A DNA stretch of 42,598 nucleotides, from IMG/VR virus record IMGVR_UViG_3300009185_000039, positions 1 through 42,598 of that record; one strand, 5' to 3'. The stretch comes from a virus. A program made the translations under genes and the position numbers. Below, piece after piece: positions 21,431-38,775 of this stretch. Below the pieces are notes generated by a model that saw only the letters and a program-made list of their open reading frames with translations, was not told where the DNA came from and searched no databases. Positions within the stretch are counted from its first letter, which is position 1. Each line of letters starts with the position of its first letter.

Positions 21431-23257
21431 GTGGGCATGGGGATTGACCACAGAGGACACAGAGCGCACAGAGAGAGGTTGCGTGAGTTGGCGCAGGTGA
21501 GTGGGCGGTTGGTGGAGTTTTCCGTGGCATGGGCGCGGCGCTTGAAGGGATTGAAGCCCGAGACGGTGCGGAAATTGCAGGAAGGGCTGCGCGAGCAGAC
21601 TCGGCAAGTGGGTGGCAGGCTTGGGGAAGGTGCGGATTTTCGTGTTTATGAATCCTTTACTCCTGGGCGCGGACGCACGGTCACGAAGGTTCTTAAAGAA
21701 AAAACTCTTAAAGAAAAAACGCGCGCGGAGAGGATGTCCTCCAACCCTTATCGAGGTGGAGTGGATGAAATCTTAAATAGAACCAAAAGAGAGTGGAGGG
21801 ATGTGGCAGAATCCCCCGCTGGCGCGCACGCGGCGCTGCCTGTGGGGTGGCACAAGGCGGGATATGTGCAGGATCGCATGGTTGAAGTGGACGCTCGAAG
21901 GAGATCAGGGCGGCGACGCACGGAGCCAAAGGAGTCTTTTGTAAAAAAAATCAATCCCTTTGCTCCTACTACTCAGACAGACAGGGGGCTCGCTCATAGG
22001 ATGCCATTAGGGGCCTCGGACTCCAGCCTCTTTACTCAGGTTTATACCGGACAAGAAGGAAAGTATTATGAAAATTTACGGGGCAGAACAAAAGTCACGG
22101 CTCACAACATCATGCTCGACCCGCGCAAGCGGAAGCTGGTTTTGACCGACCCGCTGGGGATGGTGTCGTTCGCCGCTCGCGGCGGGCGGTTGGTGGAGTT
22201 TAATACCTTTGGAGCTACGCGCGCGCTTTTGCAGGAGCTTAAATCGGCGGGGGTGGCTGTATCGCGAAAGGGGGGTGAGTCGTTTTACTCTGGGTCGAAG
22301 AATCTTATCAATATTCCTAGAGGGCAAGCGGGTGTCGCTGAGGGTGTAGGCAGGCGCAATGCGCTATTCCATGAGGCGGGTCATGCCAAAGTGAACGCCA
22401 GTGGAGGGTCAGACAAGTTTCATATCGAGGCGCATAAGGCCGATCAGTCAGGAGCAAGTTTGGCGGACAGGATGAAAGTCGGCAGTCATGGCAACGAAAT
22501 GCGTAGGCAGGAGCGCTTGGCAAACCAGACCGCGCAAGCCGATATGGAGCGGATGGGAGTGCCAAAGGAAAACATCGCCGCTTTTCGTAAGGACATGGCG
22601 GGGTCTCTGAATACCTACCGCGCAGGGCACTACACCACAGCTTCTCCGAAAGCGACAATTCCGGCCTCCTCTCCGAAAGCGACAACAGCGCAAGCCACTG
22701 CCGCAGCGCCTACTGCATCACAACCACCGCAGCCCCCACAACCCCCACAACCCCCACAAACACCACAAACGCCACAAACGCCACAAACGCCACAAACGCA
22801 ACCAACCTCGCCTTTCCGTAAAAAGCCTTGGTTTGGAACCGTTGCCGCAGGAGGTCTTGGAATTGGCGGACTCGGCTACATGGCTGCGAGAAAGCCAGAA
22901 CCTAAAGAATTTGACCACAGAGAACACAAAGGACACAAAGCAAGATTGCGTGAGTTGGCGCGGGCGAGCGGGCGGTTGGTGGAGCTGGCCCGAGTGCAGT
23001 CCGTGACGGGGCAGATTCTTAATATCAACCCTGTGCCGCGAAAGGTCGCCGACCCGATTCTCAGATCATTGCGGCGTAAATTGGAAAAGGGTGGGGACAG
23101 GCAGGCTGTGCGAGCGGCGTTCTTGGGGCCGGAGGGCCACGGATGCGGCGTGCTTCTGGGGAAGCTCCCCCCTCAAGAATACATAAGGAGACTGATTTAT
23201 GGAAGCCGAGATTGGTGGACATTGATGGGAAAAAGTCGATTTTGCATTATCGGATAA
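21431..23257 (+). CDS. Multidomain protein with cassette leader and HExxH metallopeptidase motif (608 aa)
   Basis: The start is GTG at 21431 or ATG at 21437. The N-terminus is a translated family A repeat followed by the cassette L-R-E-L-A-x-x-S-G-R-L-V-E-F-S. L-F-H-E-A-G-H (HExxH, 314-318) with later conserved-looking E and H residues suggests a zinc metallopeptidase-type fold. A Pro-Gln-Thr linker (about 430-460), a glycine-rich hydrophobic stretch and a second repeat plus cassette (L-R-E-L-A-R-A-S-G-R-L-V-E-L-A) follow. The zero frame ends soon after a C-CCC-CCT site (23167-23173). The -1 frame continues into the domain annotated next. It lies just upstream of the portal, so a virion or ejected protein is likely. 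Confidence 0.75.
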   Translation: MGMGIDHRGHRAHRERLRELAQVSGRLVEFSVAWARRLKGLKPETVRKLQEGLREQTRQVGGRLGEGADFRVYESFTPGRGRTVTKVLKEKTLKEKTRAERMSSNPYRGGVDEILNRTKREWRDVAESPAGAHAALPVGWHKAGYVQDRMVEVDARRRSGRRRTEPKESFVKKINPFAPTTQTDRGLAHRMPLGASDSSLFTQVYTGQEGKYYENLRGRTKVTAHNIMLDPRKRKLVLTDPLGMVSFAARGGRLVEFNTFGATRALLQELKSAGVAVSRKGGESFYSGSKNLINIPRGQAGVAEGVGRRNALFHEAGHAKVNASGGSDKFHIEAHKADQSGASLADRMKVGSHGNEMRRQERLANQTAQADMERMGVPKENIAAFRKDMAGSLNTYRAGHYTTASPKATIPASSPKATTAQATAAAPTASQPPQPPQPPQPPQTPQTPQTPQTPQTQPTSPFRKKPWFGTVAAGGLGIGGLGYMAARKPEPKEFDHREHKGHKARLRELARASGRLVELARVQSVTGQILNINPVPRKVADPILRSLRRKLEKGGDRQAVRAAFLGPEGHGCGVLLGKLPPQEYIRRLIYGSRDWWTLMGKSRFCIIG

Positions 23258-23643
23258 CAAAGCAGGAAAGCCACTTAAAGCCATCCAATGCAGACCTCCC
23301 TGCTCCTCCAAATATGACTTCTGAAGATATCATGCGAAATCACATTGGTTTTTCTTCGGGCAGGGCTATTAGCACATCCACACGACGAGCTTCCGCGATG
23401 CGATTGGTGTCTGAATATGGAGGCAAGACTCCCGTTGAGGGCGTTTATGCCACTCCTTTGGATGAACTCATTAAAAATCAGCGAGAGAAAATCAAGGGGG
23501 CGATGACTAACGCAAGGTATCCAGCAGAAAGAGAGATCACGCAAACACACGGCGACAATCTTCTGAAAGTGAGAAAGCACAAAGCCATCGTCGATCCCAC
23601 GCAAGGACCAGGAGATGATGTTACCTACACACGCTCCCGTTGA
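23143..23643 (+). CDS. -1 frame continuation with ADP-ribosyltransferase-like motifs
   Basis: Best read as the C-terminal part of the preceding gene after a -1 shift at 23167-23173, giving L-P-P-S-R-I-H-K. An independent start at 23143 is the alternative. The order L-H-Y-R-I (Arg), A-I-S-T-S-T-R (S-T-S) and Y-P-A-E-R-E-I-T (E-x-E) matches the R-S-E class of ADP-ribosyltransferases, with spacings typical of toxin domains. A phage ART could modify host RNA polymerase or other proteins on entry. The fold assignment is by motif only. The CDS stops just before a family A repeat. Confidence 0.5.
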   Translation: MRRASGEAPPSRIHKETDLWKPRLVDIDGKKSILHYRITKQESHLKPSNADLPAPPNMTSEDIMRNHIGFSSGRAISTSTRRASAMRLVSEYGGKTPVEGVYATPLDELIKNQREKIKGAMTNARYPAEREITQTHGDNLLKVRKHKAIVDPTQGPGDDVTYTRSR

Positions 23644-23718
23644 ATATATGACTCACCCCTCCGTGTCCTCTGTGTTCTCTGTGGTCAATCTCCCGTTGAC
23701 TGAAAACTGAAAACTGAC

Positions 23719-25437
23719 ATGAACTTTCTGGATCGAGCAGTATCTTTTTTTGACCCCGAGGCGGGGGTGAGTCGGGCGATGGCGCGGGAGCGGTTGAAGG
23801 CATTCGGGTATGATTCCGCGCAGCCTGGAACGAATCGCGGCGGCAGTGGCGGGAGGCAGAAGAACTCCTCCTCGGAGACATGGCGGATGCAGCGGGATCG
23901 TCTGGTGCTCTTGTGGGATGCGCGCGATGTGGTGCGGAATTTTTCGATCCTGCGCGGCATCATTTCGCGCATCGTTCAATACACCGCCGATACGGTTCAG
24001 TATGTCTCGCAGACGGGGGATGAGGAGATCGACTCGGCGTATCAGGATTACTTCCATGCGTGGTGCGAGCAGGCGGATATTACTGGTCGTCACCGGCTGG
24101 GCGCTCTGGTTTCCATGGCGATGTGGAGCTTGCTGGTGGATGGCGATCACGGCTGGCACTTGGTAGAGATCGATGCGGGCGGCGGCAAGCGGCAACTCCG
24201 CATCCAATCCATCGAGGCCGACCGCATCGGGGATCCGAATAATCCGATGAGTCCAGGGAACAACAACGACATCGGCGGCATCATCGTGGACGAGATGGGT
24301 CGCCCTGTCTCCTATCGCATCTTCAAGCGCGAGCGGCGCACGGCGTTGTATTCCTTTGAGCGGGAGATTCCTGCCGACCAGTTTATTCACATTTTCGATC
24401 CGATGCGGGTGGATCAATATCGAGGCGTCACGGCGCTCTCGACCGTCATCGCCCCCGCGCGGGATTTGTATGAGGTGTATCACTTTGAGAAGCTGGCGGC
24501 GAAGTGGCAAGTCGGCCATGCGGGGTTCGTGAAGGTGAGCGACCCGACACGGCGCGACGGCGGCATCTCGGCGTGGGATGGGAAGAAGGATAACCGCACC
24601 GACTCTCCTGGCACGATGGCGATGGAGGCGGGAAAAATCCAGCGTCTCTCGCAGGGCGAGGACATCCAGTTCGCTCCTGGCACGAACCGCCCGAGCGGAG
24701 CGTTCATGGCGCTGGTGCAGACGATGGTGCGCGAGATCGCCAGTGGGCTGAATATGCCCTACGGATTTTTGTATGACATGACGGCGTTCTCGGGTCACAC
24801 GGGTCGCATCGAGATCGCGCAAGCCATGCGCTCGATCCGCCGCTACCAGAAACTTCTCAGCGAGAAAGCCCTCGACCCGCTGCGGGATCGCGTGATCGGC
24901 CTTGGTATTTCCATGGGCGAGTTGCCAGCGCATCCGCAGTGGCGCAATGGCCGCTGGGGGTTTGGCCGCTCGCTCACAGGCGACTACGGCCACGACACGC
25001 AGGCGAATCTCCAGCTTCTCCAGGCCGGACTCGTCACGGCGAGCGACCTCATTGCCGAGACAGGGCAATCTTTCGAGGAAGTGGTGCGCCGTAGCGCGAG
25101 CGAAGTCGCTTACCTGCAACGGGTCGCCACCGAGACAGGTGTGCCGATCGAACTCATCAATCAACGCCTGCCTGGGCCGACTCAAGCCCTCGCCGCCATG
25201 GCCGAGCCGCCACAGCCGCCGCCACCTGGCCTCGTGCCGCAAGGGTTGGATGTGAAGCCGCTCTTGGAGTTGCTGAAAAATGTGGGCGAAGGGATTCTGG
25301 ATCGCGAGAGCGCGATTATCAATCTGATGAACCTGTATGGCGTGGAGCGGAATGCGGCTGAGAAGATGATCCCTGATGGGCCGAAGGAGAAGAGTTTAAC
25401 CACGGAGAACACGGAGAGCACGGAGGGGAAGAAATGA
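23719..25437 (+). CDS. Phage portal protein, lambda family (572 aa)
   Basis: This is the dodecameric portal through which DNA is packaged and ejected. Family features include V-R-N-F-S-I-L-R-G-I-I near 75, D-G-D-H-G-W-H, R-I-Q-S-I-E-A-D-R-I near 170, F-I-H-I-F-D-P-M-R-V-D-Q-Y-R-G-V-T and the membrane-distal G-L-N-M-P-Y-G-F-L-Y-D. These match lambda gpB-type portals in order and length. The last residues (T-T-E-N-T-E-S-T-E) are translated family A repeat. The stop is ATGA-coupled to the next gene. Confidence 0.93.
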   Translation: MNFLDRAVSFFDPEAGVSRAMARERLKAFGYDSAQPGTNRGGSGGRQKNSSSETWRMQRDRLVLLWDARDVVRNFSILRGIISRIVQYTADTVQYVSQTGDEEIDSAYQDYFHAWCEQADITGRHRLGALVSMAMWSLLVDGDHGWHLVEIDAGGGKRQLRIQSIEADRIGDPNNPMSPGNNNDIGGIIVDEMGRPVSYRIFKRERRTALYSFEREIPADQFIHIFDPMRVDQYRGVTALSTVIAPARDLYEVYHFEKLAAKWQVGHAGFVKVSDPTRRDGGISAWDGKKDNRTDSPGTMAMEAGKIQRLSQGEDIQFAPGTNRPSGAFMALVQTMVREIASGLNMPYGFLYDMTAFSGHTGRIEIAQAMRSIRRYQKLLSEKALDPLRDRVIGLGISMGELPAHPQWRNGRWGFGRSLTGDYGHDTQANLQLLQAGLVTASDLIAETGQSFEEVVRRSASEVAYLQRVATETGVPIELINQRLPGPTQALAAMAEPPQPPPPGLVPQGLDVKPLLELLKNVGEGILDRESAIINLMNLYGVERNAAEKMIPDGPKEKSLTTENTESTEGKK

Positions 25438-25751
25438 GTCCACGGACAGTTAAGACAATTTACGAGGGGGCGGGAGTTAAAGGAATTAAAAGTCGAGCAG
25501 GAGAAAATTCTTTGAAGGGCTCGGGTTGTTTGTCGTTTGGGCAGGCGGGGAAGAGACGGAAGTATCTCACGCAGGAGGAGCAGGAGAAGATCTGGATGGA
25601 GCATCTCAAGAAGGATATGGAGCGGGCGGAAGAATACTTCTGGCGGCAGACGCCGGAGCGGCGGCGGGTGCAGGATATCTACCTGGAGACGCACAGGGGA
25701 TTTGGTCGGGAAGGGAATGATTTTATTTTTGGAAAGGGAAAAAAACGATGA
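25434..25751 (+). CDS. Basic hypothetical protein (105 aa)
   Basis: This is a Lys/Arg/Glu-rich protein whose central helix (T-Q-E-E-Q-E-K-I-W-M-E-H-L-K-K) is likely a coiled coil. It is coupled at both ends (ATGA) between the portal and the 1570-aa gene. It could be a small connector or internal protein. The family is unknown. Confidence 0.65.
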   Translation: MSPRTVKTIYEGAGVKGIKSRAGENSLKGSGCLSFGQAGKRRKYLTQEEQEKIWMEHLKKDMERAEEYFWRQTPERRRVQDIYLETHRGFGREGNDFIFGKGKKR

Positions 25752-28700
25752 GTGAATTACTTCGCAAAGCAGTCGAGACGATGAAACTTCTCAAGAAGAA
25801 GCCGCACCTCAAACCTGTGGCGGCTGGCGGCGGCGAGTTGAGCAAGGCCGAGCGTTGGCGCACGGCGCAGATGGCGCAGGATTGGCTGAATGCAAATGCC
25901 GATCCGAAATATCACCGGCGCAGGTTGCCGGATATGGAGGAAAATGGGCAATTCAAGCTGTTGACGCGCGGGCGGCTGGGTATGAGGCTCAAAGAATTTC
26001 GCTATTATCAACCTCCCGGCGGCTACTACGGAAATCCTTACGATAAGGATTTTGCTCAGGAAAGACAGAAAGAGCGACGCAATGGGTTGATCAAAGCGGG
26101 CATCGTCGGCGCGGGTTTGCTGGGTGGTGGAGCTTTGCTGGGCCGTGGTTTGTATAAGGTCGGCAACAGCGGGGCTGTGCGGCGAGCCGAGGATCTGGCC
26201 GAAGAACTCTCGAAGCTGCGCGCCAGTAAGGCCGCTGCCGATGTCGGGAATGTCGCACCTGCTCCGCGTGGCCGCCCGAAGCTCAAAAGCGAAACGCCGC
26301 CTCCGACACCTCCTCAGACGCCTGCCCCTACACCGCCGCCGCAGACGCCTCCCCCCACACCCCCGCCAACGAATGTTGGCAAGGGGAGCAAGACCACACC
26401 AAAGACCAAGGTGGTCGAAAGTTTGAACAACTCGGGCGACTTGCCCGCTGCTGATGCCGCCGCTGAGATCGATGAGATCACGGCAGTCAAGCCACCCCGC
26501 AAGCTCACGGCGAGGCAACAAAAGCTGGCGAACCGGCAGGCTAAAGTCGCCAAATTCGCCGCCGCCCAATCTGGAGCCTCCGTCCCGTCCACGCCTGCTC
26601 CCGCAGCACCAGTCGTTCCGAAAACAAAGACTCCCGTAGTTGCAAAAACAGAGCCTCCTGCCACCCCTGCGTCCCGCATCGAGGCTATCAAGTCATCTGT
26701 GCAGCGTGTGGATGATGGCGTGCCTGCGCCAAAAGTCGCCAGCGCGACGAATGAGGAATTTTGGGAGAAAAAAGGGGTCGGCAAAGTTCCGCTTTTAGGA
26801 ACGCCCGAGCAGAACGCCGCCCTCCGCAAAAGGTTGGAAGACACTCATGCCGCTGGGGGGTTCACTGGCAAGGTCGCTGCCGATGTGATCGATGAGGCGC
26901 GCGCTTCGCTGAAACCGAAATCCGATTTTCCAGAAGGACTCAGCGATAAACTTCGCTCGGCAGGGAAGGAAAACAATCCAAAGCCTAGAGCTAAGAAAAA
27001 GTCCAAGGCCAAAAAACAGGATGCCGATGAGGCTGACGATCTCGATGATCTGGATGAGGCAGACGACATCAATGAACCTGATGCCTCGCCGGAGGAGGCC
27101 GATTGGGAAGCAAAGCTGAAGGAGAATCCTCAAGTGCGTGCCAAGAAATCTGCCGCAAAGTCAGATTCCAAAAAGCCTGCCGCAAAAGCTGCCGCAAAGT
27201 CGGATTCCAAAAAACCTGCCGCTAAGGCCGCCGCTAAACCTGCTGCCAAATCCAATAAGGGTAAAAAAGAGGCGGCTCCGCTTTCTTTTGCCGAAAGGAT
27301 CGCTGCCAAGGTCAAGGCGAAGCGTGCCAAAAAGAATGGCAAGAACCTCTCTGCCCTCTTGCACCGCGTGCGATATTTCAATCAATTTCAAACCGACGAG
27401 GCGGGCATCCCGCTCACGGGTCGTGTGGCGAGGGATCGCTTCGTGAAGAAGCTCCGCGATGAGGACTTGGATCGCCGCGATGCGAATATCCTGCGTGCCG
27501 GTGGCGCGGGGGCGCTGGCGGGCCTACTGGCTCGTGGCCGCATCGGCGCGAGCAAGCGCGCACTCATCGGCGCGGGTGCTGGCGGACTCGGCGTGATCAG
27601 CATTCGTGCCCTCACCAATAACGACCGCGACATCTACGGCGAGCGGGATCGTGGCAGCAAGCGCGCGGAATTGATCCCTGCTTTGGGTGGTCTCGGCGCG
27701 GCGGCGTGGCTTGCGGGTAAGCGGTTCAAGGCGTTTGCGAAGAAGTTTAACCACGGAGGACACGGAGAGCACGGAGGAGGGTTGAAGGAGTTTGCGTGGA
27801 TCTCGGTAAAAACAGATCGGGTTTCGGCAGATCATGCTGCAGCCAGAAGAGCAATTATAGAAAAATACGGCAAGCCGCAGGCGGAAGCGCGCGCCCCGGG
27901 TATCGCCGTAGAAAAGAAAGACGGCCCTTCTATCTTCGCGTCCATGAACAACCCTGATTCGCCATTCTATGTGCCTCCAGAAAAAAGAGAAGAGCAACGC
28001 CTGCGCGCAAAAGAATGGCACAGAATAAATCGTCTCCGCCATCTGGCTTTACGCAAGGAGTCCAACCTGGCCTCCCGTCTTCGGGGCGTGAAAAACTTTG
28101 ACGACTACCGGCTCTACTATTTCAAGGGTCGGAATACGGGCATTGCTGCGCGGAGTGCTGAGGAGGCTCGCTCGAAAAAGAAGCGTGGCGGCGATGAGTT
28201 GGTGGCTGTGCGCACGCCGAATGATTCCGAACGGAGCCAGATGGCGCGTGGGGTGTGGGTGCGGACTCGCCGCGATGGCAAGTCGCCTGGGCAATCCCGC
28301 TACGGCAAGGGCCGTGGGCAGGGGCCAGCGCGGAAGAGCTTGAGCGCGAAGCTGCGCGGATTGAAGGAGTTTGGGGTGTTGAAGTCAAAGATCGTGCCGG
28401 TAATAGAAAGGGGTATTGATTCGATTACTGATTATGATCCTTTCGGGCACTTCTCGCGGCAGACGGCAAAACTTAACACTCAGCAGGCTAAGCATGTGCG
28501 TGCACAGGAAAGCGCGCACGCGGCAAGAATGTCCCAAATACTTGGCAGCAAGTGGTCACCCAATTACGGTGAATCATATGGCGCGAAATTCTACACTAAA
28601 GAAGCAAAGGGATACCGCAAGCAGGCGGCTGATCGTTTCAAGCGAGACGCTGTAGTATCTGGGGTAGGATTAACCGCTGCTGGTGCTGGCGCTGGATATT

Positions 28701-30460
28701 TGGCTACGCGCAAGAAAGAGCAGAAACAACTTGCGGCGAAGATACGCGGGGTGCGGTTTTTCCAAGAAAAGAAATCTGGCATGAACCCCTATGCAGGTGC
28801 GGCGTTGTCTGGCTTCGGCAGTGGCGCGGCACTTGGCTCTCTGGCGCTGCTCAAGCGCGGGGCGACATTCCGTGGCGCGGCGAAGACGGCGGCGAAGCTG
28901 GGGTTGGCCTCGGCGGGTATCGTCGGCGGCGGGGCGTTGCTCGGCAGCAAGATCGTGGGCGATCCGCGTAAGGAGGAGTCCGCTCCCTTTATGAAGCGGG
29001 CGGCGATCGGCGGCACGCTGGTCGGCGCAGGCGCAGGACTCGGTGGGGCATTGCTGCTTCGCAAGACCAAGGGTGGAGCGCGTGCGCTTGTGGCGGCCTC
29101 TAAGAAGAGCGAGCCATTTTCACGGCCTGCCATGTGGTTGCGTAAGACTCCCCTGGCTGGAGCCGCTGCGATCGGTGCCGTGGGCGGGGCGTTTTATGGT
29201 GGCGGCATGGGCGCGGATGAAGGGCAGCAAGTCGATTCGATACGCAATCTGAGAAAGGATATGAAAAAGTTTTCAGTGGGCAGTTTTCAGTTTTCAGGGA
29301 AACGGCTGCGCGAGTTTGCGCTTATTTATAAAACCGGAATTGGCGGGGCGATCTTATCGCGCTCCTCCAAGGGCAGTTCATTTGCGGAGACAGCCAAGCG
29401 CGCCGCCAAGGCGGTGGGCGGGTGGGCGAAGCGGAATGGCACGGCGATCGGTCTCACAGGGGCCGGTGTCGGAGCCTCGGTGGCGGCATCCCGCTATTAT
29501 GGCCCGTCGAACAAGGGCTGGAAAAAGCTCGATGAGCCGAAGGAATTTGGCCGTGGCGACCAGGCGCGCTGGGATGCCCGCCGTGGCGGGGGTGTGCTGC
29601 CCAACGAGGACTCGCAATTTGCCAATACAGCCTGGGGCTGGGCGACTGATCGCCCGATGTATATCCCTAAGAGGAACAGCCAGGGCCGTGTCGAGAAAAA
29701 TCCCGATACTGGCGATACGATTCGCGTGAAATGGGACCCGAGTTCGGGTCAGCTCTGGAACTCCGTGGCCCGCGAGGCGGGACGCCAGCGCGTGAATGTG
29801 CAGCGCGGCGGGCGACTCTCGCGCGATCTCGTGGATGAGCTGCGCGGCGCACCCCGCCAGCGCGATGTCAGTGGTCGCATCAAGAAGCGTGAGTGGGAGA
29901 AAAGCTGGTTCCACAACAAGGCTACCGAGATCGGTATGACAGCGGCTGGCTTGGGCGGCCTAGCCACCGTGCGCTATGCCAATAACAACCCGGATACCAA
30001 GATCGGCGAAGCTTATAAAAAAACTAAAGCAAGCCTTCGTGCCACGGGGGATGGCCTCTCGGAGATCGGTAAGAACATCTTAGGGGGCCTCACAAAAATC
30101 ACCGCGAAAAAAGCATTCTCCGCGAAGCTCAAGAAGCTCCGTGAACTCGATGCCATTGCGGAATACGAGGGCTGGGATGTCCGTGATCCGCGTGGTCGCT
30201 CGGCCCGTGTCTTCGCACCCGGCAGCCGCAAGCGCGAACGCCGCCAGAAGGAATGGCATGAGAAGACGGAAAACGAGCGCAAGCTCTGGAAGGCAGGCAT
30301 CGCCGCAGGCGTGCTCGGCGGCGCAGGAGCCATGCTCGTCGGCCAACGCCTCGTCTCCGGCAAGTCGCTCATCCCCTCGCGGTTTATGCCCAAGAAGGTA
30401 ACTCCACCCGATGCCAGCGTCTTTGTGGATGCGGCCAAGGTGTTCAAGGCAGGCGCTTAA
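25748..30460 (+). CDS. Giant cassette-containing glycine-zipper protein (1570 aa)
   Basis: This is a modular, very basic protein. Cassettes of the S-A-K-L-R-G-L-K-E-F type occur near residues 80, 535, 680, 777, 866, 995, 1184 and 1458. Between them lie hydrophobic Gly/Ala segments with G-x-x-x-G spacing (near 115-130, 585-620, 975-990, 1012-1065, 1085-1105, 1140-1160, 1230-1250, 1515-1535) that could insert in or cross a membrane. Residues 185-330 are Pro/Thr-rich linkers and 450-520 a Lys/Ala block (K-S-D-S-K-K-P-A-A-K). Family A, family B and palindrome P repeats are translated in frame at 27748, 29266 and 26032. Lying between portal and protease, it is probably an internal or ejected virion protein made as a precursor. 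The family is not recognised. Confidence 0.8.
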   Translation: MSELLRKAVETMKLLKKKPHLKPVAAGGGELSKAERWRTAQMAQDWLNANADPKYHRRRLPDMEENGQFKLLTRGRLGMRLKEFRYYQPPGGYYGNPYDKDFAQERQKERRNGLIKAGIVGAGLLGGGALLGRGLYKVGNSGAVRRAEDLAEELSKLRASKAAADVGNVAPAPRGRPKLKSETPPPTPPQTPAPTPPPQTPPPTPPPTNVGKGSKTTPKTKVVESLNNSGDLPAADAAAEIDEITAVKPPRKLTARQQKLANRQAKVAKFAAAQSGASVPSTPAPAAPVVPKTKTPVVAKTEPPATPASRIEAIKSSVQRVDDGVPAPKVASATNEEFWEKKGVGKVPLLGTPEQNAALRKRLEDTHAAGGFTGKVAADVIDEARASLKPKSDFPEGLSDKLRSAGKENNPKPRAKKKSKAKKQDADEADDLDDLDEADDINEPDASPEEADWEAKLKENPQVRAKKSAAKSDSKKPAAKAAAKSDSKKPAAKAAAKPAAKSNKGKKEAAPLSFAERIAAKVKAKRAKKNGKNLSALLHRVRYFNQFQTDEAGIPLTGRVARDRFVKKLRDEDLDRRDANILRAGGAGALAGLLARGRIGASKRALIGAGAGGLGVISIRALTNNDRDIYGERDRGSKRAELIPALGGLGAAAWLAGKRFKAFAKKFNHGGHGEHGGGLKEFAWISVKTDRVSADHAAARRAIIEKYGKPQAEARAPGIAVEKKDGPSIFASMNNPDSPFYVPPEKREEQRLRAKEWHRINRLRHLALRKESNLASRLRGVKNFDDYRLYYFKGRNTGIAARSAEEARSKKKRGGDELVAVRTPNDSERSQMARGVWVRTRRDGKSPGQSRYGKGRGQGPARKSLSAKLRGLKEFGVLKSKIVPVIERGIDSITDYDPFGHFSRQTAKLNTQQAKHVRAQESAHAARMSQILGSKWSPNYGESYGAKFYTKEAKGYRKQAADRFKRDAVVSGVGLTAAGAGAGYLATRKKEQKQLAAKIRGVRFFQEKKSGMNPYAGAALSGFGSGAALGSLALLKRGATFRGAAKTAAKLGLASAGIVGGGALLGSKIVGDPRKEESAPFMKRAAIGGTLVGAGAGLGGALLLRKTKGGARALVAASKKSEPFSRPAMWLRKTPLAGAAAIGAVGGAFYGGGMGADEGQQVDSIRNLRKDMKKFSVGSFQFSGKRLREFALIYKTGIGGAILSRSSKGSSFAETAKRAAKAVGGWAKRNGTAIGLTGAGVGASVAASRYYGPSNKGWKKLDEPKEFGRGDQARWDARRGGGVLPNEDSQFANTAWGWATDRPMYIPKRNSQGRVEKNPDTGDTIRVKWDPSSGQLWNSVAREAGRQRVNVQRGGRLSRDLVDELRGAPRQRDVSGRIKKREWEKSWFHNKATEIGMTAAGLGGLATVRYANNNPDTKIGEAYKKTKASLRATGDGLSEIGKNILGGLTKITAKKAFSAKLKKLRELDAIAEYEGWDVRDPRGRSARVFAPGSRKRERRQKEWHEKTENERKLWKAGIAAGVLGGAGAMLVGQRLVSGKSLIPSRFMPKKVTPPDASVFVDAAKVFKAGA
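26032..26052. repeat. Palindrome P, copy 8, inside the 1570-aa gene
   Basis: A perfect copy (CGA spacer), translated as N-P-Y-D-K-D-F about 15 residues after the first L-K-E-F cassette. Confidence 0.9.
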
Positions 30461-30487
30461 AACTTAATTCTTAAAACTTAAAACTTA

Positions 30488-32200
30488 ATGGACTCAAGAC
30501 CACGCAACAACAACGGCCAATTCGCTCCCGAGGAAATGAGCGGCGTAGATGCCAACACCACCTCAGCGGCCTACAACCCGCAAATCATTGAGGCGCGTAA
30601 AGCGACCCTCGCCGAGAAACTGCGCCGTGCCATCGGCCTGCGCCGTGGCGTAGAGGAAAGCGTGCCGCAAGAGCAGAAGGTTCTTTCGAGGTTTAACCAC
30701 GGAGGACACGGAGAGCACGGAGGGGTGAAGGAGTTTTCGATTCTTAATAAAATTTCCAATCTCACCGGCATGGCGCAGATCAAGGCCGGGCGCGAAGCGT
30801 TGGATGCAGCGAAATACAACAGGTCGTTGAGGGACGCTTACCGCGCTGATGCCGTCAAGCAGAACAAGTTCCCCTACAGGGATTCTGGCCTTCAGTATAA
30901 GATTGAAAGCGGCATGAGGCATAGGGCTATTGCTCGCGGAACTGATGCTAAGTATGACGTGCGGCGAGCCAGGAAACTCATCAACGAAGGAGTTCGCCGC
31001 CGTAACATTTCGATTGGCGTCGGCGCAGGCGCGGTGGGTGCAGGCGCGGTGGCTGGGTATCTTGCGACGCGCGAGAAAGACCTCTCCGCCAAGCTCCGCT
31101 TGCGCGAGTTGGCTGAATACAAGCCCTCTGAGGAAGCGTTGAGACTTAGGGATGCAACATTGGCTTACAACAAATTTATCGGAGACGAGGAAGATTGGCA
31201 GGCCGCGTCTAACTCTGAAAAGGGGTTGAAGTTGAGAGGCGCTCACGCGGCCGCAAATAATGCGGTGCAGCAAAAGGGTATTCAATCGCAGTGGCATTTG
31301 CCGTTTGGCATCGGCAAAAAGGCAAAGGCGTGGCGTCAATACAATCAAGATATGGATTGGGTGAACAGCCACCTCTCCGCCAAGCTCCGCTTGCGCGAGT
31401 TGGCGCGGCAGGCGGCTTATGATCCCTATGCGGTGCAGGCGCAGCCTCCGGAGCCGGGGCAGACGGGCAGGGATTTTCGCAATGCGGCGCTAGGGATCGG
31501 GGCTTTGGGTGCTGGTGGCGGCGTGGCCTATGCAGGGTTTCGCGGGGCGCAGGCGGCAAAGAGCGCGCAGACGCTCACGGATGATGCGCTCAAGACCTCG
31601 GGCGAGGCTCGTAAGGCCGCTCGCTCGGCGAGGGTTGCTGCGGCGCGAGTGAATCGTGCTGGCAAGGTGATCAAGACGCAACTCACGACCTTCCCGACTT
31701 TCAAGAAGGTGGCGTCCAAGATTTTTGAAGAGGATTTGCAAGGCCTCAAGGAACTCGCTGCGCGAAGCGTGGAGTTGAACTCGATCACCTACCACGAGAC
31801 GAATGCAGATATTTTGCGCCGCAAGGCGCGCGGGCATCGGGAAAAAAGGGATGAATCTACTGGTATGTGGCCGTATGCGGTGGCTGCTCCAGGCATACTG
31901 GCGGCGTCGCCTGCTCTGCGTGCGGAGTCTTCAGGCCGTGTCGCTTCACTTGGCAAAAAGCTCTGGAAGGGTGAGCACGCCGACAATACGGCGCACATTG
32001 GCAATAAGGTGGCGGGGATTCTACGGGCGCACCCCGGCAAGGTCGTGTCGGCCTTGGCTCTGGCTCCTGCTGCCGTGCTGGGCGGGAATCTCGCCTACCA
32101 CACGATTGCCGCCCGCTCGAAAGACAGCGGCGTGAATAAGGAACTCAAGCTAGCGAACGAAATGCGCCGCCAGCGCAACGCGGAGGCGATCAAGAGATGA
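30488..32200 (+). CDS. Cassette and glycine-zipper protein, relative of the 1570-aa product (570 aa)
   Basis: It opens S-R-P-R-N-N-N-G-Q-F-A-P, a pattern common at the N-termini of phage virion proteins. It has a translated family A repeat followed by V-K-E-F-S (about 80), two near-identical S-A-K-L-R-L-R-E-L-A cassettes (near 202 and 300), and L-K-E-L-A-A-R-S-V-E-L (near 420). Gly/Ala hydrophobic segments near 180, 335 and 515 resemble those of the upstream giant. A family B repeat is its 5' leader. A further internal virion precursor is likely. Confidence 0.75.
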   Translation: MDSRPRNNNGQFAPEEMSGVDANTTSAAYNPQIIEARKATLAEKLRRAIGLRRGVEESVPQEQKVLSRFNHGGHGEHGGVKEFSILNKISNLTGMAQIKAGREALDAAKYNRSLRDAYRADAVKQNKFPYRDSGLQYKIESGMRHRAIARGTDAKYDVRRARKLINEGVRRRNISIGVGAGAVGAGAVAGYLATREKDLSAKLRLRELAEYKPSEEALRLRDATLAYNKFIGDEEDWQAASNSEKGLKLRGAHAAANNAVQQKGIQSQWHLPFGIGKKAKAWRQYNQDMDWVNSHLSAKLRLRELARQAAYDPYAVQAQPPEPGQTGRDFRNAALGIGALGAGGGVAYAGFRGAQAAKSAQTLTDDALKTSGEARKAARSARVAAARVNRAGKVIKTQLTTFPTFKKVASKIFEEDLQGLKELAARSVELNSITYHETNADILRRKARGHREKRDESTGMWPYAVAAPGILAASPALRAESSGRVASLGKKLWKGEHADNTAHIGNKVAGILRAHPGKVVSALALAPAAVLGGNLAYHTIAARSKDSGVNKELKLANEMRRQRNAEAIKR

Positions 32201-32283
32201 GCATCAAGTCCCGACTTATTCAACTGGCAGTAAGGGCTGAGCAGGAGGTAATGCTGCGGCGCAAGGAACCCCAAAAAAAATAA
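32197..32283 (+). CDS. Tiny coupled ORF (28 aa)
   Basis: M-S-I-K-S-R-L-I-Q-L-A-V-R-A-E-Q-E-V, ending K-E-P-Q-K-K, is a basic amphipathic helix. It overlaps the preceding stop by ATGA and ends 3 bp before the phosphoesterase start, so it fills the gap exactly. Translation is plausible from the overlap, but the function is unknown. Confidence 0.4.
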   Translation: MSIKSRLIQLAVRAEQEVMLRRKEPQKK

Positions 32284-32286
32284 TTT

Positions 32287-33297: not shown

Positions 33298-33303
33298 AAT
33301 CCT

Positions 33304-33792: not shown

Positions 33793-33794
33793 CT

Positions 33795-34037: not shown

Positions 34038-34060
34038 TTGTTGACGCTGCGCCGTGAGGC

Positions 34061-35377
34061 ATGGCGACGACGGCAAATCTTAAAGAATTTTACACCCCTT
34101 ATAACTGCGCGCAGAAGGTGGACGCTCTCAATGGCGTGATCCACGGCGTGGCGGTGATCACCAGCGGCGTGAAGGCACGCGGGCACGATCTGGAGGTGGA
34201 TGCGAAGACGCTCAACCAGATCAAGGAATGTGCCGAAAAGCTCGGCACGGTGCCGGTGAAATGGAACCACCGCACAGGCGCGGATGCCGTAAATGGCTAC
34301 TTGGATAATTTCCGCATCGAGGCCGCGAAGCTCCTCGGGGATTGGCATCTTCTCAAGAGCCACGACCGCTTTGCCCAGGCCATCGAAATGGCCGAGCGCA
34401 TGCCAGGAAATGTGGGCCTCTCGGCGGCATTCATGGGCGAGGACGAGATGGAGAACGGGCAAAAGAAAGCCCGCTGCTCGGAGTTGATCAGCGTCGATCT
34501 GGTGGCAAATCCCGCCGCGAATCCCTCCGGCCTTTTTGAAGCAAAACTTCCTGCCGCCCCCACCGAATTCGCGGGGTCAGTTGACACGCGAGCAATGGGC
34601 GAACCTTTTATGGACAACCAAAACAACCAAGCAAGTGCCGCCGCTGAGCCCTCCATGGGCGATCTTCTGGCTGCTATCCAAAACCTCACCGAGCGCGTTG
34701 CCGCACAGGATGAGACCATCGCGGCTCTTTCGCAAGAGGGTGCCGAAAACGACAACGAAATTTCCCTGGAAGAGATCATGGATCTCTCGCAGGAAGATAT
34801 CGCCGCCCTCGTCCAAGCTGGCGAGATCAGTGAGGAAGATGCCGCTGGCATCCACGCCTACCAAGCCGAAGTCATCGCTGCTATCGAAGCCGATGAAGCT
34901 GGCGAGCAGGGCGAAGGCAACGAGCCTGCTGGCGAACTCGCCGGTGCAGGAGTCGAAAGCTCCACAGGCGGCTCCGAGGGCACTGCTCTCTCCGCTCTCC
35001 AAAAACAAGTCCGTGAACTCTCGGCCCGCTTCGAACGCGAAGACGCCGCCGCTGAGAACAACGAGATCTCACATTATTTCTCCACCATCGAAGGCAACAT
35101 GACCCAACTCGCCGCCGAGCGCGCCGAGCTGAAGGAATTTGCCGACAAGCTCGCCGCTGAAAACGACGCGCTTCGCAACGCACTCAAAACTGGCATCCGC
35201 CCGCTGGCATTCAGCGCCGAGGGAGCCGTGCTCAGTGGCAAAAACGGGGAACTCCATGAGTTCGAATCCCGTGTGCAGAACCACAAGAGCCAAGGCAAGA
35301 CACATGCCCAGGCCGTGATGCTCGCCCACAAGGAAAATCCTGAAGCGCACCAAGACTGGATCCGCAACCAGGGCTAA
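34061..35377 (+). CDS. Prohead protease fused to capsid scaffold (438 aa)
   Basis: Residues 1-160 fit a phage prohead serine protease: V-K-W-N-H (His70), G-L-S-A-A-F (Ser121) and E-L-I-S-V-D-L-V-A-N-P-A-A-N-P (141-155). The rest is a Gln/Glu/Ala-rich, largely helical scaffold with an acidic middle, ending in a small basic domain. Candidate cleavage or leader motifs L-K-E-F (7-10), P-T-E-F-A (about 167), L-K-E-F-A (about 357) and L-H-E-F (about 397) occur in it, consistent with self-processing. It lies directly upstream of the decoration and capsid genes. The ATG at 34061 follows a GTTGAC element by 20 bp. Confidence 0.82.
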   Translation: MATTANLKEFYTPYNCAQKVDALNGVIHGVAVITSGVKARGHDLEVDAKTLNQIKECAEKLGTVPVKWNHRTGADAVNGYLDNFRIEAAKLLGDWHLLKSHDRFAQAIEMAERMPGNVGLSAAFMGEDEMENGQKKARCSELISVDLVANPAANPSGLFEAKLPAAPTEFAGSVDTRAMGEPFMDNQNNQASAAAEPSMGDLLAAIQNLTERVAAQDETIAALSQEGAENDNEISLEEIMDLSQEDIAALVQAGEISEEDAAGIHAYQAEVIAAIEADEAGEQGEGNEPAGELAGAGVESSTGGSEGTALSALQKQVRELSARFEREDAAAENNEISHYFSTIEGNMTQLAAERAELKEFADKLAAENDALRNALKTGIRPLAFSAEGAVLSGKNGELHEFESRVQNHKSQGKTHAQAVMLAHKENPEAHQDWIRNQG

Positions 35378-35399
35378 CTCAACCAAAGGAAAAAATACT

Positions 35400-35759
35400 A
35401 TGAACTTCAACACAGTTGTTTCTCTCCCTGCCGCAGTTGATCTGACTGGCAAAGAGCACGTCTCACTCAAACTCACAGCTACCGGCGTGGATATCGCCGG
35501 AGCCTCCGACACCGTGATCGGCACGCTCCTTCGCGGGGCCGCCATCAACAAGGCGGCAGATGTCTTCCTCAGCAAGGGGAACGGCCTCCGCTACGTCCAA
35601 GTCGGCAATGCCACAGCGATCCCTATGGGCAGCCTTCTGGAGCAAGCGGCAAGCGGCACTTATGTGCTCAAGACCACTGGCGCTACCGCTGGCTACGCCG
35701 TCGAGGCAGCGCCCGCAGGCAGTAATGGGGGCGGCATGATCCGCGCCATCATCCTCTAA
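35400..35759 (+). CDS. Probable head decoration protein (119 aa)
   Basis: This is a small Ala/Gly/Thr-rich beta protein (V-S-L-K-L-T-A-T-G-V-D-I-A and G-L-R-Y-V-Q-V-G-N-A-T-A-I-P) between the protease-scaffold and capsid genes, the usual place for capsid-stabilising decoration proteins. An AAAGGA ribosome site stands 11 bp before the ATG. The family assignment rests on size and position. Confidence 0.65.
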   Translation: MNFNTVVSLPAAVDLTGKEHVSLKLTATGVDIAGASDTVIGTLLRGAAINKAADVFLSKGNGLRYVQVGNATAIPMGSLLEQAASGTYVLKTTGATAGYAVEAAPAGSNGGGMIRAIIL

Positions 35760-35788
35760 AAATCAACACTCAATAGAAGACAACGATT

Positions 35789-36745
35789 ATGGCATACAAT
35801 ACTAACGATTCCGTTCCACGGACAGACATCTCCACACTTTTGATGGAGGCAGTCCACCAGGAAAAACACTTCGTCGCCTCCAGCCTCCTGCCCATTTACG
35901 GCAGCGAGCGTGAGGTCGGACGCTATCCGAAATTCCGCATCGGCAAGGGCGAACTCTTGAAAAAAGAGAGCCAAAAGCGCGGAGCCACCGGCACCTACAA
36001 CGAAAGCGAAGAGCAATTCGAGTGGGACAGCTACCAGACCGTTGAATACGGGCACGAAAAGCGCGTGGACGATGTCGTCCGCAAACAAATGCGCGATTTC
36101 TTCGACTCCGATATGGTCACGGCCAAGTTCTGCATGAACAAACTCATGCTCGACTACGAAGTGGAAGCTGCCGCTGCGATCATGGATCCTTCCGTGTTCA
36201 CGGCAAGCGCCGCAGGCACAGCCTACACCGAAGCGAACCTCGCTACGATGGACTTCCCTGCCGACTTGAACGCCACGATCGAAGCCCTCACCCTAAATGG
36301 TGAAGAGCCGAACACGATGGTTATCAGCCTCTCGGTCTATAATCGCCTGAAGCGCTCCAAGCTGCTCCAGACCTACCTCTACGGCCACTTGAACACAACC
36401 CAAGGCGGATCGAACATTACCCCAAACCTCATTGCCGAGGCCTTTGGCATCCCGAATATCGTGGTCGCCAAGAAGTCCTACGACAACGCGATCAAGGGCA
36501 AGACGAATGTCGTTCCTGTATGGGGCAATAGCTATGTCTGGCTCGGCGAAGTGCAAGGCGGCGACTTCATGAACGGCGGCTGCGGTCGCACGATCATCTG
36601 GGATGCCGACAGCGAAGGCGGCCTCTTCACCACGGATCAATACCGCGACGAGCCTCGTCGTGGCGACAAGATCCGCGTGCGCAGCAATCGCGTGATCAAG
36701 ATCGTGAACCCGAACTCGGGCCGACTCATCGGAACCGGACTCTAA
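35789..36745 (+). CDS. Major capsid protein (318 aa)
   Basis: The N-terminal V-P-R-T-D-I-S-T-L-L-M-E-A and F-V-A-S-S-L-L-P-I-Y, then F-E-W-D-S-Y-Q-T-V-E-Y-G-H-E-K, are typical of an HK97-fold coat protein N-arm and E-loop. The G-I-P-N-I-V-V-A-K-K-S-Y, W-G-N-S-Y-V-W-L-G-E and I-K-I-V-N-P-N-S-G segments fit the P-domain and C-terminal strands. It follows protease-scaffold and decoration genes in the standard order. Confidence 0.88.
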   Translation: MAYNTNDSVPRTDISTLLMEAVHQEKHFVASSLLPIYGSEREVGRYPKFRIGKGELLKKESQKRGATGTYNESEEQFEWDSYQTVEYGHEKRVDDVVRKQMRDFFDSDMVTAKFCMNKLMLDYEVEAAAAIMDPSVFTASAAGTAYTEANLATMDFPADLNATIEALTLNGEEPNTMVISLSVYNRLKRSKLLQTYLYGHLNTTQGGSNITPNLIAEAFGIPNIVVAKKSYDNAIKGKTNVVPVWGNSYVWLGEVQGGDFMNGGCGRTIIWDADSEGGLFTTDQYRDEPRRGDKIRVRSNRVIKIVNPNSGRLIGTGL

Positions 36746-36850
36746 GGAAAAGTATGAAGGAGGAAGGATGAAGTAGGAAACTGCTGAGTCCTTCCTCTTT
36801 TTTTTGATTAACCACAGAGGACACAGAGAACACAGAGGAAGAGAATTTTT

Positions 36851-37744
36851 ATGAAAAGATTACATGAGTTCACTTCTCCGCTTGGAGAATTTAACAAAGC
36901 CTATGCTCAAGAGGAAGAGAATGCTCGGGCGGCTGCCAGATTGGCTCGGTTGAATTATCGGAACGGCAAACGAGAATACAAATACATCAAACAAGGTGTT
37001 TCAGATAACCCTGCTATCGCTGACTTGCAGCAAAAATTGCACGATGAAAGCTATGTAAGGCGCGGGGCTGGCCTTGGATTGCTGGGTGGTGCTGCCGCTG
37101 GGGCGGGCGGTTTTGCTCGCGGCGGAGTTCCTGGAATGCTTTTGGGAAGTGCAGTTGGCGGTTTGCTGGGTGCGTATGGAGGAGTGCAAGTCGGCGGTCG
37201 CATCCGTAAAAACAAAGACAAAAATCTATCTGCCAACCTCAAGCCTGCTCTCCGCGAGCTGGCGGCTCGCAGCGAGGCGATCACGGAATTCGCCATGGTG
37301 CGTGATGCCAATGGCCAGTTTGTCGAGGTCGAGGACGAAGGCGGCATGGGTATGGGCACGGCGGTCAAAGCCGGGGCAGGTGCTGCTGCTCTCGGCGGCG
37401 CAGGCTACGGAGCCTATCGAGCCGACAGGGCGATCATGGGTAAATACGGAAAGCAGGGGCTTATTGAAAACATGGATTCGCGCAACCTGCCTTCAGCCTA
37501 CGCAGGCACAACCGCTGCTGGAACAGGAGCCGCTACTCGCGGCCAAGCCTACCGCTCCGCGCTCAAAGATATTGGCAACTCTGCCACAAGCCGAGTTAGC
37601 CAAGGGTGGGCTGCGGGCAATGCTGCCTACAACGCAGCGGGTCGCCGCGCCAGTGCGGCTTTGCCAGTAGAGGCCAGTGGCTTTGGGGCTAAGCTCCTTC
37701 GCGGAATTCGCAAGGGACTGAGCGTGGCAACCAAAATGGCTTAA
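36851..37744 (+). CDS. Cassette-led glycine-zipper protein (297 aa)
   Basis: It starts M-K-R-L-H-E-F-T-S-P-L-G-E-F-N, very like T4 internal-protein leaders with two x-E-F sites. A Gly/Ala hydrophobic segment (75-118), the cassette S-A-N-L-K-P-A-L-R-E-L-A-A-R-S-E-A-I-T-E-F-A (about 128-149) and a second Gly/Ala segment follow. The cassette is nearly identical to that in the 298-aa gene. AGAGGAAGAG forms a ribosome site. Probably an internal head protein processed by the prohead protease. Confidence 0.7.
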   Translation: MKRLHEFTSPLGEFNKAYAQEEENARAAARLARLNYRNGKREYKYIKQGVSDNPAIADLQQKLHDESYVRRGAGLGLLGGAAAGAGGFARGGVPGMLLGSAVGGLLGAYGGVQVGGRIRKNKDKNLSANLKPALRELAARSEAITEFAMVRDANGQFVEVEDEGGMGMGTAVKAGAGAAALGGAGYGAYRADRAIMGKYGKQGLIENMDSRNLPSAYAGTTAAGTGAATRGQAYRSALKDIGNSATSRVSQGWAAGNAAYNAAGRRASAALPVEASGFGAKLLRGIRKGLSVATKMA

Positions 37745-37753
37745 ATAACTTAC

Positions 37754-37824
37754 TGCAGGATGGAGAAACGGTATCTCACGAGGCCCATAACCTTGCGTTC
37801 CGGGTTCGATTCCCGGTCCTGCTA
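37754..37824 (+). tRNA. tRNA-Met (CAU anticodon)
   Basis: The cloverleaf runs: acceptor TGCAGGA/TCCTGCT (pair 1-72 is a U.U mismatch), D stem GAGA/TCTC, anticodon stem CGAGG/CCTTG with loop CCCATAA, variable CGTT, T arm CCGGG-TTCGATT-CCCGG, discriminator A, no encoded CCA. The unpaired 1-72 position is an initiator-like trait, but the anticodon stem lacks three G:C pairs. Position 33 is C instead of U. CAU could also be an Ile tRNA modified to lysidine. Confidence 0.85.
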
Positions 37825-37878
37825 ATTTCCACACCACCACAACCGCTGGCAGGCCGGGCAAAGTCTGCCACTTTTTTT

Positions 37879-38775
37879 ATGATTAACCACAGAGGATACA
37901 GAGAACACGGAGTGAAAGAATTTGCAAAAATCTCTCCGAACAAGGCTGCTTGGGAGGCAGCTTTTGAGCGCGCACGATCCCATGTCTTTGCCGAGAATAT
38001 TGCAAAGCAAGCGAAGGCCAAGCCTGCCGTTCGCAAGCTGCGATCGAACTCGCTTCCTGATGCGGATTGGGCTGGGCCGGGGTGGAAAGTCTTTAAGCCT
38101 TCTTCGTCTGAGATGCGGTCATCGTTGCCTCGGCAATCGGGCGCGGCGTGGCTCATGTCAGCCAACCTCAAGCCCGCCTTGCGCGAGCTGGCGGCTCGCA
38201 GTGGGCGGATCGTGGAGTTTGGACATAGCGAGGCCGAAGATGCGGTGATTGCGGCTTTGAAGGCTGCGGCGAGCGCGGATGAGACACCTGCGCAGCGGGC
38301 GATGCTGCTCAAGCGCGGCCTTATCGAGATGGTGAAGGGCCAACTGGTGATCAACGAGCGCGGCTATGACATGATGAAGAAGGCAGGCGTGCCGCCGAAG
38401 CTGACTCCCGAGGAACGCCGCGAAGAGATCATGGGGACTGAGGAAGAGAAACGGCTTTCCAGGTTTAACCACGGAGAGCACGGAGGACACGGAGTGGAAT
38501 TTGCGCGGGGGGATTATGCTCTCGCTTCAGCAGAGGGTGTTTTATCAAAACTTAACCCGGCCTTTAGCTTGGCGCGCTCGCGGAGCCTGACATTAGGTGG
38601 GGCGAAAGCGGTTGCGGCGCGGGTGCCGAGGCGCGGAACTGCCGAGGTAAAAAAACTTGCCGATGCGGTGCGGTGGCATCGGAATAATAGTAAGCTGGCC
38701 CTTAAAAACCTTCCGCACAATGTAAATTCAGAGCAAGGGATTTTTGAGAAAATATACGAAGGCTATCCTTATTAA
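37879..38775 (+). CDS. Cassette-led hypothetical protein (298 aa)
   Basis: The start codon and first residues (I-N-H-R-G-Y-R-E-H-G) come from a family A repeat, followed directly by V-K-E-F-A-K-I-S. A second cassette S-A-N-L-K-P-A-L-R-E-L-A-A-R-S-G-R-I-V-E-F-G is near 95-116. A translated repeat plus V-E-F-A-R-G-D is near 195-210. The region between is helical (residues 120-190). It shares its cassette with the 297-aa gene across the tRNA. The function is unknown; a virion-associated precursor is likely. Confidence 0.65.
   Translation: MINHRGYREHGVKEFAKISPNKAAWEAAFERARSHVFAENIAKQAKAKPAVRKLRSNSLPDADWAGPGWKVFKPSSSEMRSSLPRQSGAAWLMSANLKPALRELAARSGRIVEFGHSEAEDAVIAALKAAASADETPAQRAMLLKRGLIEMVKGQLVINERGYDMMKKAGVPPKLTPEERREEIMGTEEEKRLSRFNHGEHGGHGVEFARGDYALASAEGVLSKLNPAFSLARSRSLTLGGAKAVAARVPRRGTAEVKKLADAVRWHRNNSKLALKNLPHNVNSEQGIFEKIYEGYPY

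Follow-up and report, generated by a model that had tools for sequence, protein, structure and literature searches.

The 42,598-base virus record IMGVR_UViG_3300009185_000039, analysed over its whole length and called the window here, carries a head block on its plus strand in the order portal (23719), 1570-residue protein, 570-residue protein, metallophosphoesterase (PF00149), the protein encoded at 34061, a small protein (35400), the major capsid protein (MCP, 35789), and the products of the open reading frames (ORFs) at 36851 and 37879 (Table 1). Six proteins of this region, those of the ORFs at 21431, 25748, 30488, 34061, 36851 and 37879, share a short cassette with the element Phi-x-E-F/L, the constant core Phi-[KR]-E-[FL]-[AS] and the fullest form F/L-S-A-K-L-R-x-L-R-E-L-A. 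A reading made earlier from the letters alone, referred to below as the original prediction, had taken the cassettes for capsid-targeting and cleavage elements recognised by a protease encoded at 34061. Our analysis suggests that the cassette is both the leader and the joint of a system of exchangeable modules, and that its carriers are probably leader-tagged cargo polyproteins for injection, which would dock in the prohead and be cut at the copies that have Glu.

Across the six proteins (3,781 aa) the expression [LIVM][KRHT]E[FL] matched 20 times against 0.88 expected from within-protein shuffling, while in the other 42 of the window's 48 ORFs (8,921 aa) it matched twice against 2.6 expected. 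This expression was drawn after the window copies were known, the pattern-independent tests being those on relatives, and the gene sets are greedy longest ORFs, some of them spurious. The ORF at 21431 carries two RLREL and three LVE[FL] copies, 25748 has nine sites, of which six have Glu and three lack it, 30488 has four, and 34061 has four strict sites (NLKEF, QVREL, ELKEF, ELHEF) together with a TEF between its protease part and its scaffold part; the copies are LHEF, LGEF, LREL and ITEF in 36851, and VKEF, LREL, IVEF and VEF in 37879. The original prediction had placed the six ORFs correctly and all of them hold the cassette, its copy numbers being slightly off (nine rather than about eight in 25748, four rather than two in 36851, five rather than two in 21431), and the three Glu-less copies that it had pointed out in the giant protein are indeed present, at joints. 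Its S-A-K/N-L-R consensus describes a real motif, of which the S-A-K/N part is limited to a subset of internal copies. The N-terminal placement it gave for several proteins holds for 36851 and 34061; the ORFs at 21431 and 37879 open inside a dispersed repeat, R1, and the cassette would stand at their N-termini only through the probable later starts TTG 21479 and GTG 37912. An AlphaFold model of 36851 was uninformative (predicted local distance difference test, pLDDT, 47; predicted template modelling score, pTM, 0.20).

Table 1. Cassette carriers, their neighbours and copies of repeat R1 in the window (nucleotide positions unless a residue is named)
Feature	Position	Strand	Remark
R1, plus-strand copies	near 592, 3855, 5065, 12743, 21446, 22913, 25398, 27749, 30695, 36810, 37885, 38467	+	
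R1, minus-strand copies	near 801, 5624, 8152, 9334, 10224, 16119, 23657, 39681	-	
21431 ORF from probable true start TTG 21479	21479..23257	+	leader MRELAQVSGRLVEFS at N-terminus
21431 ORF, internal cassettes	22187 and 22943-22990	+	motif scan
21431 ORF, HEAGH zincin-type motif	ORF residue 314	+	motif scan
Portal, lambda family (PF05136)	23719..25437	+	Pfam match; without cassette
1570-aa protein	25748..30460	+	nine joints; seven Gly/Ala-rich membrane-like segments
25748, six joints with Glu	25985, 27779, 28358, 29303, 29534, 30134	+	
25748, three joints without Glu	27362 HRVRYF, 28085 GVKNF, 28748 GVRFF	+	
In-frame R1 copy just before GLKEF	27742..27780	+	TTG 27782 behind GGAGGAGGG, possible internal start
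570-aa protein	30488..32200	+	three membrane-like segments; cassettes 30722, 31097, 31388, 31742
In-frame R1 copy just before GVKEF	30683..30733	+	GTG 30725 behind GGAGGG, possible internal start
34061, protease-scaffold fusion	34061..35377	+	predicted model, T4 gp21-like fold at residues 19-163; C-terminal part putatively scaffold
MCP (phrog_1005)	35789..36745	+	without cassette; block anchor
297-aa protein	36851..37744	+	N-terminal MKRLHEFTSPLGEF, internal LKPALRELAARSEAITEF; two membrane-like segments
37879 ORF from probable true start GTG 37912	37912..38775	+	leader MKEFAKIS
37879 ORF, cassettes	38176, 38206, 38488	+	

The cassette as leader and module joint in relatives

Relatives were found by searching viral contigs with 34061 and the MCP, which gave nine loci at 70-97% identity and then more distant loci down to about 35% (loci and records carry the prefix L). 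With the expression fixed on the window, the full records of the nine relatives held 113 sites in the head block against 11.2 expected (42,571 aa), and 63 against 46.3 outside it (153,631 aa), a count made on pieces with 100-base overlaps in which end genes are cut and a few possibly doubled. An equal frequency in non-virion proteins, which the original prediction had named as counter-evidence, is not what these counts show for the proteins outside the block. A profile, behind the first scans of relatives and a scan of 15 further loci and trained on blocks of the same records, gave 14 matches outside the block in the nine relatives, 8 of them in genes just upstream and 6 scattered. The genes just upstream (L071 8636 and L076 6114 among them) look like injected proteins themselves.

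The search of related phages with a profile, which had also been proposed, was made with a second profile trained on the close group alone (the window, L001-L004, L006, L008 and L009), with the protease ORFs excluded. In the seven more distant, held-out records L010, L012, L013, L017, L041, L044 and L048 the cassette recurred, with 20 sites in 14/140 ORFs against 0.2 in shuffles; a few of the 20 could have arisen by chance or belong to tail proteins (L012 15104, L017 14878), and two of them, in L041 and L048, nearly repeat each other. No minus-strand cassette was found in this set, which has 24 minus-strand ORFs. In the scan of 15 further loci, six together gave 14 profile matches, of which 8 fell in the protease ORF, and the other nine, with distant proteases, are taken up below. 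The cassette system shows most clearly within a single clade. Among bacterial assemblies, the nearest relatives come from a Spartobacteria metagenome-assembled genome (80%), an Akkermansiaceae metagenome-assembled genome (66%) and Verrucomicrobiaceae (54%), and for this reason the hosts are most likely Verrucomicrobiota; weaker relatives (26-53%) include Planctomycetes and others, and many of the bacterial-assembly matches are metagenome-assembled genomes, some distant ones lying outside Verrucomicrobiota.

Many separate genes of relatives begin with the cassette, as in MNLKSRLKELAAKS, MITRLRELSARC and MDTNIKPRLRELAARSERVVEF, and 34 of 183 regex sites fall in the first 30 residues against 12.3 expected, protease N-termini counted. 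A short N-terminal leader, as in a T4-type capsid targeting sequence, is thus found in many genes of relatives and, in the window, in 36851, 34061 and probably 21431 and 37879. The same modules occur behind a leader and behind a joint. The module A[ML]VRDANGQ/ASGR, which follows LKPALRELAARSxxxxEF, has its cassette within the protein in window 36851, L002 and L006, and at or near the gene start in L001 13854, L008, L003 and L004 (alignment A4, in which the start of L008, a chosen ATG, and the inferred starts of L003 and L004 were assigned in this analysis); in L001 12859 an internal cassette is followed by a different module. The rows of A4 were selected for carrying the cassette and 4/8 have little or nothing upstream, and 11 of its 23 invariant columns lie at residues 131-148, partly due to row choice. 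The module DSRPRNxNGQ opens the 30488-type gene in 9/11 records and follows SRLREL or SRLRQF within a protein in the other two (L013, L017).

A comparison of 162 distinct non-protease sites gave 55 pairs that agree over the downstream 20 residues and not over the upstream ones, and 47 pairs that agree upstream only, 36 of the latter having no fewer than 18 upstream residues on either side; the switch falls after E[FL]. The set omits protease ORFs and L100, a duplicate of L008 (uncleaned, it held 211 sites with 73 and 52 pairs); the sites were chosen by motif, which builds in their identity at -3 to 0, and the pairs are non-independent, some upstream differences being mere divergence. Homology breakpoints point the same way, 55% of 98 internal ends of high-scoring segment pairs lying within 20 residues of a cassette against 25% at random, with the ends coming from related, non-independent records. 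In the same close loci the protease is 72-97% identical and the MCP 81-96%, and the cassette proteins are therefore shuffled against a stable background. These patterns argue for the cassette as both leader and joint of exchangeable modules. The original prediction held neither this joint role, nor R1 with its possible starts, nor the polyvalent, injected character of the carriers.

The predicted protease at 34061 and the loss of Glu at joints

The protein at 34061 is predicted to be a T4 gp21-like protease at its N-terminus, followed by a putatively scaffold-like C-terminal part, and the protease that the original prediction had placed here is supported by a structural model. The AlphaFold model of residues 1-175 (pLDDT 73.6, pTM 0.68) had 5jbl, T4 gp21, as its top Foldseek match at E 1.5e-4, and a VIA comparison with T4 gp21 gave Z 11.6 and a root-mean-square deviation of 3.5 over 130 aligned residues at 11% identity, with herpesvirus proteases following at Z of at most 7.0; the predicted model has the fold of the T4 gp21/herpesvirus assemblin proteases. 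With T4 gp21 from NC_000866 added to the alignment, H70, S121 and D146 align with H85, S140 and D168, which we take to be the catalytic triad of T4 gp21, and the three residues are invariant in 19/19 rows (alignment A3). The spacing of 25 between Ser and Asp equals that of SPN3US S153-D178 (PMC5694885). An N-terminal LKE lies at residues 7-9, where gp21 has LIE-9, and at 4-6 in the proteases of L006, L008 and L009, while the C-terminal GELHEF is invariant in eight rows of alignment A1. T4 gp21 itself cuts after L/I-x-E and has LIE-9 close to its N-terminus (PMC9026906); before activation the site is blocked by the first nine residues of the protein, which are probably removed by self-cleavage (PMC9958956).

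Against Pfam, 34061 had no match to a peptidase family with an E-value of 1 or below, and a sequence-profile search of solved structures with it did not list gp21; because no sequence-profile match was obtained, we name it gp21-like rather than Peptidase_S77. A search of its own record with PF03420 (Peptidase_S77) found no match and was uninformative, 14 controls being silent too. Searches with 34061 in annotated phages and with the giant 25748 protein also gave no match.

The cassette sequence is compatible with removal by a prohead protease after L/I-x-E. Several results nevertheless weigh against reading the cassettes as targeting and cleavage elements. Besides the silent profile searches with 34061 just described and, outside the head block, the 63 regex sites against 46.3 expected and the 14 profile matches, no profile match above 13 was found in nine further loci with distant proteases (L053-L057, L026, L029, L015, L016), several of which are short, a looser regex finding a few sites in L015 and L016. 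The N-terminal LKEF is present in 8/8 rows of A1 but in 5/19 of A3, and a test of the cassette's hydrophobic moment gave a weak signal (mean z 0.63). Codon agreement between same-residue copies exceeds the gene background in the window (0.435 against 0.36) and in L013 (0.458 against 0.352), and among near-identical pairs the shared codons also exceed background, in the window (22/33), L002 (72/146), L004 (13/17) and L013 (8/16). At the joint DAIAEYEGWD relatives keep E in 8/14 and F/L in 14/14, at DDYRLYYF in 1/6 and 5/6 (one row off register), at GRGDQARW in 2/4 and 4/4, and before NQFQTDEAG in 0/14 and, in that register, 5/14, and some joints may keep neither; only these named joints are used, the overall tally (91/205 with E, 123 with F/L) mixing off-register seeds. 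No excess of L/I-x-E was found in the scaffold half (5 against 4.8), the MCP (3 against 2.8) or the portal (5 against 5.0).

The hydrophobic part is thus more constant than E, a pattern more in keeping with targeting or docking than with obligatory cleavage, and the lack of L/I-x-E excess implies that gp21-like cutting, if any, is directed at the cassettes and not spread more widely. Of the original prediction, a capsid-targeting element agrees well with a cassette that is kept mainly at the protein level, is concentrated in the head block, forms an N-terminal leader in relatives and resembles the N-termini of T4 internal proteins; cutting at every copy is weakened by the loss of Glu at orthologous joints. 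Targeting, cleavage and the virion location of the carriers are accordingly put forward here as likely rather than established properties.

The strongest rival holds that the cassette is a docking or packing helix only, targeting without cleavage, in which E is a residue of the helix surface. It draws on the joints at which F/L is kept more often than E (three of those named), on the absence of excess L/I-x-E in scaffold and MCP, and on T4, where targeting and cleavage residues are separable (PMC9026906); in T4 IPIII targeting depends mainly on residues 4 and 7 and processing on residues 8 and 10, and an Asp at position 10 prevents processing while leaving targeting intact (PMC9026906). We consider it unlikely, in view of E standing at -1 in 94% of collected cassettes, even though the seed favours E, and of an encoded protease that models as a gp21 fold with LKE at residues 7-9.

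Repeat R1 and the codons of the cassette

R1 (AACCACRGAGGACACRGAG..., TTAACCACRGAGGACACRGAGRACACRGAGG) occurs in about 20 copies on both strands across the window. Plus-strand copies lie directly upstream of the ATG codons at 25434 and 36851 and of GTG or TTG codons able to open a leader (27749, 30695, 37885, 38467), and some cassettes are joined to R1, translated in frame as NHGGHGEHGG. From its sequence, R1 may be a GGAGG-rich ribosome-binding array at gene starts, possibly a mobile one, and its in-frame copies may mark old or still active internal starts, with candidates at 27782, 30725 and 38494.

These junctions raise a second alternative, that the cassettes are a selfish or recombinogenic DNA repeat whose copies happen to be translated. 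The values above background given in the previous section speak for it, both those for all pairs (window and L013) and those for near-identical pairs (window, L002, L004 and L013). Where agreement over all pairs is raised, some pairs have the appearance of recent duplicates, among them the two 34-nt identical cassette copies of 30488. Over all same-residue pairs, however, codon agreement equals background in L002 (0.354 against 0.352) and L004 (0.376 against 0.374) and is near it in L006 (0.366 against 0.343; near-identical pairs 34/97, 0.351 against 0.306); the held-out set has no minus-strand match among its 24 minus-strand ORFs, and R1 itself occurs on both strands and in other frames without a cassette. 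Because agreement is near background in 3/5 records tested, the cassette appears to be conserved mainly at the protein level, with several copies following R1. We mostly reject a DNA-repeat origin on codon agreement, the above-background values remaining, and hold it very improbable. The last alternative, that the motif has no head function and its carriers are ordinary structural or tape-measure-like proteins whose helices are rich in K, E and L, draws on the shortness of a four-residue core and is likewise highly unlikely, given that composition-preserving shuffles do not yield the motif and that the motif sits at module joints.

Other features of the window were recorded alongside these. 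A repeat R2 (AAGTTTTAAGTTTTAAG or its complement) lies at 4774, 8112, 8618, 9889, 11120, 30456, 38936, 39645 and 40939, several copies immediately upstream of the ORF starts 8110-, 8611-, 9888-, 11119-, 30488+ and 40981+. A partly palindromic element with the core AAAATCCTTACRATAAGGATTT has eight copies (7191, 7562, 8864, 11596, 14377, 14457, 16141 and 26018), one of them within gene 25748, and is possibly an operator or replication iteron. A tandem repeat of 2.6 copies of a 37-nt unit at 14615-14709 lies inside the lowest-GC 2-kb bin of the window. The metallophosphoesterase (32287-33297) is 96-98% identical in the close relatives that have one, amid strongly shuffled neighbours, and was not found in L008 when the head blocks of close relatives were compared. 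A single tRNA-Met (CAT) stands at 37754-37824, between 36851 and 37879. The MCP has an LME at residues 18-20, invariant in eight rows of its alignment (A2), which could be a cut site or a feature of the fold.

Probable leader-tagged cargo and known systems

The carriers have the look of injected, mosaic proteins. Gly/Ala membrane-like segments occur at 4.3 per 1000 aa in carriers against 0.77 in other plus-strand ORFs and in 70 of the 118 modules of at least 50 aa, with a mild trend for such a segment to follow a joint (median 49 against 87 residues), and HEXXH is found in 12/63 cassette ORFs against 1/179 others. As in polyvalent proteins, the context is that of head and packaging genes, the carriers lying between portal and MCP and beside the MCP. 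Membrane-like segments and HEXXH fit injected, mosaic polyvalent proteins as described in PMC5512222. A Pfam search with 16 such proteins from relatives and window found no match over the cut-off; below it were, among others, PF14542 (E 0.013), PF01435 (E 0.024) and PF19197 (E 2.8e-5). Upstream of the block in two relatives, the genes L071:8636-11170 and L076:6114-8351 carry at least four cassette-like sites together with HEXXH motifs and ARGDYAIPALGKM modules in tandem, and one of the two gives the weak GNAT match (PF14542). In L001:239-5851, residues 484-501 hold RRDFLK and a hydrophobic stretch after the joint RFHEF, with a weak Tat-signal match (PF10518, E 0.018); cutting at this joint would expose the stretch as an N-terminal signal.

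That the carriers are docked and partly cut cargo polyproteins is the explanation we favour, and we think it probable. It builds on the motif, its concentration in the head block, the exchange between N-terminal and internal positions and the swapping of modules at the joint, all of them observed, and on the predicted gp21-like fold; targeting, cleavage, ejection and the scaffold role would follow by analogy. The cassette would be a short leader marking the start of a head-internal protein module, with its Phi-[KR]-E-[FL] core docking the module to the prohead core, probably to the scaffold half of 34061. By analogy with T4 IPIII, the F/L face may dock the leader and Phi-x-E may be the cut, a division with which joints that lose Glu and keep F/L agree. 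The gp21-like protease of 34061 would cut after Phi-x-E during head maturation where Glu is present, and modules fused into one reading frame would keep their leader at the joint. The proteins of 25748 and 30488 would then be polyproteins of leader-tagged modules, cut into separate ejected proteins, with Glu-less joints staying uncut and holding neighbouring modules together.

A wider proposal, which we offer tentatively as somewhat short of probable, is a modular grammar of cargo in which any block behind a leader, alone or in series, is loaded into the head, a series is a true polyprotein that is cut into effectors ejected separately, blocks are swapped at the leader, and loss of Glu acts as a fusion switch. 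If true, the system would show how several injected proteins are loaded and released from one chain, supply a legible rule by which the head cargo of uncultured Verrucomicrobia phages could be predicted, and provide a natural, repeated capsid-loading tag, and the processing of polyvalent proteins would become testable.

Parts of this arrangement are familiar from other phages. In P1, an N-terminal signal loads the very large injected protein DarB into the head, as a cassette may do here, with the difference that a single N-terminal signal rather than internal repeats is described in the available part of that source (PMC9024508). The ejection proteins of phiKZ and SPN3US are likewise cut after Glu at short motifs, with redundant propeptide sites (PMC9026906, PMC7411985, PMC10052503), but in the excerpts available 13/14 mapped SPN3US sites remove N-terminal propeptides and one a protease C-terminus, whereas the sites here delimit modules that would be kept. 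Polyvalent proteins, found in phages and conjugative elements, share the long mosaic chains, the packaging context and the zincin-like HEXXH motifs, and recombining cassettes were suggested for those of Verrucomicrobium spinosum; their domain release is ascribed to embedded peptidases, and a short leader per joint is not described in the portion of that paper available (PMC5512222). Our literature searches, which reached papers in part, found none on repeated internal capsid-targeting leaders.

A close likeness is to T4 IPI-IPIII and gp21, which share with the window a short E-F leader, a gp21-fold protease and a Phi-x-E near the protease N-terminus (PMC9026906, PMC9958956). In NC_000866 the N-termini read MKTFKEFTS for ipI and MKTYQEFIAE for ipII and ipIII, beside MKRLHEFTS for 36851, and residue 7 of IPIII is the Phe of E-F. 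Unlike in T4, the leaders here are also internal, repeated and placed at the joints of exchangeable modules, and protease and scaffold-like part are joined in one protein. Capsid targeting with prohead proteolysis and polyvalent proteins are both known, and we rate the leader-tagged, joint-swapped modular head proteins of this clade as a variant of them.

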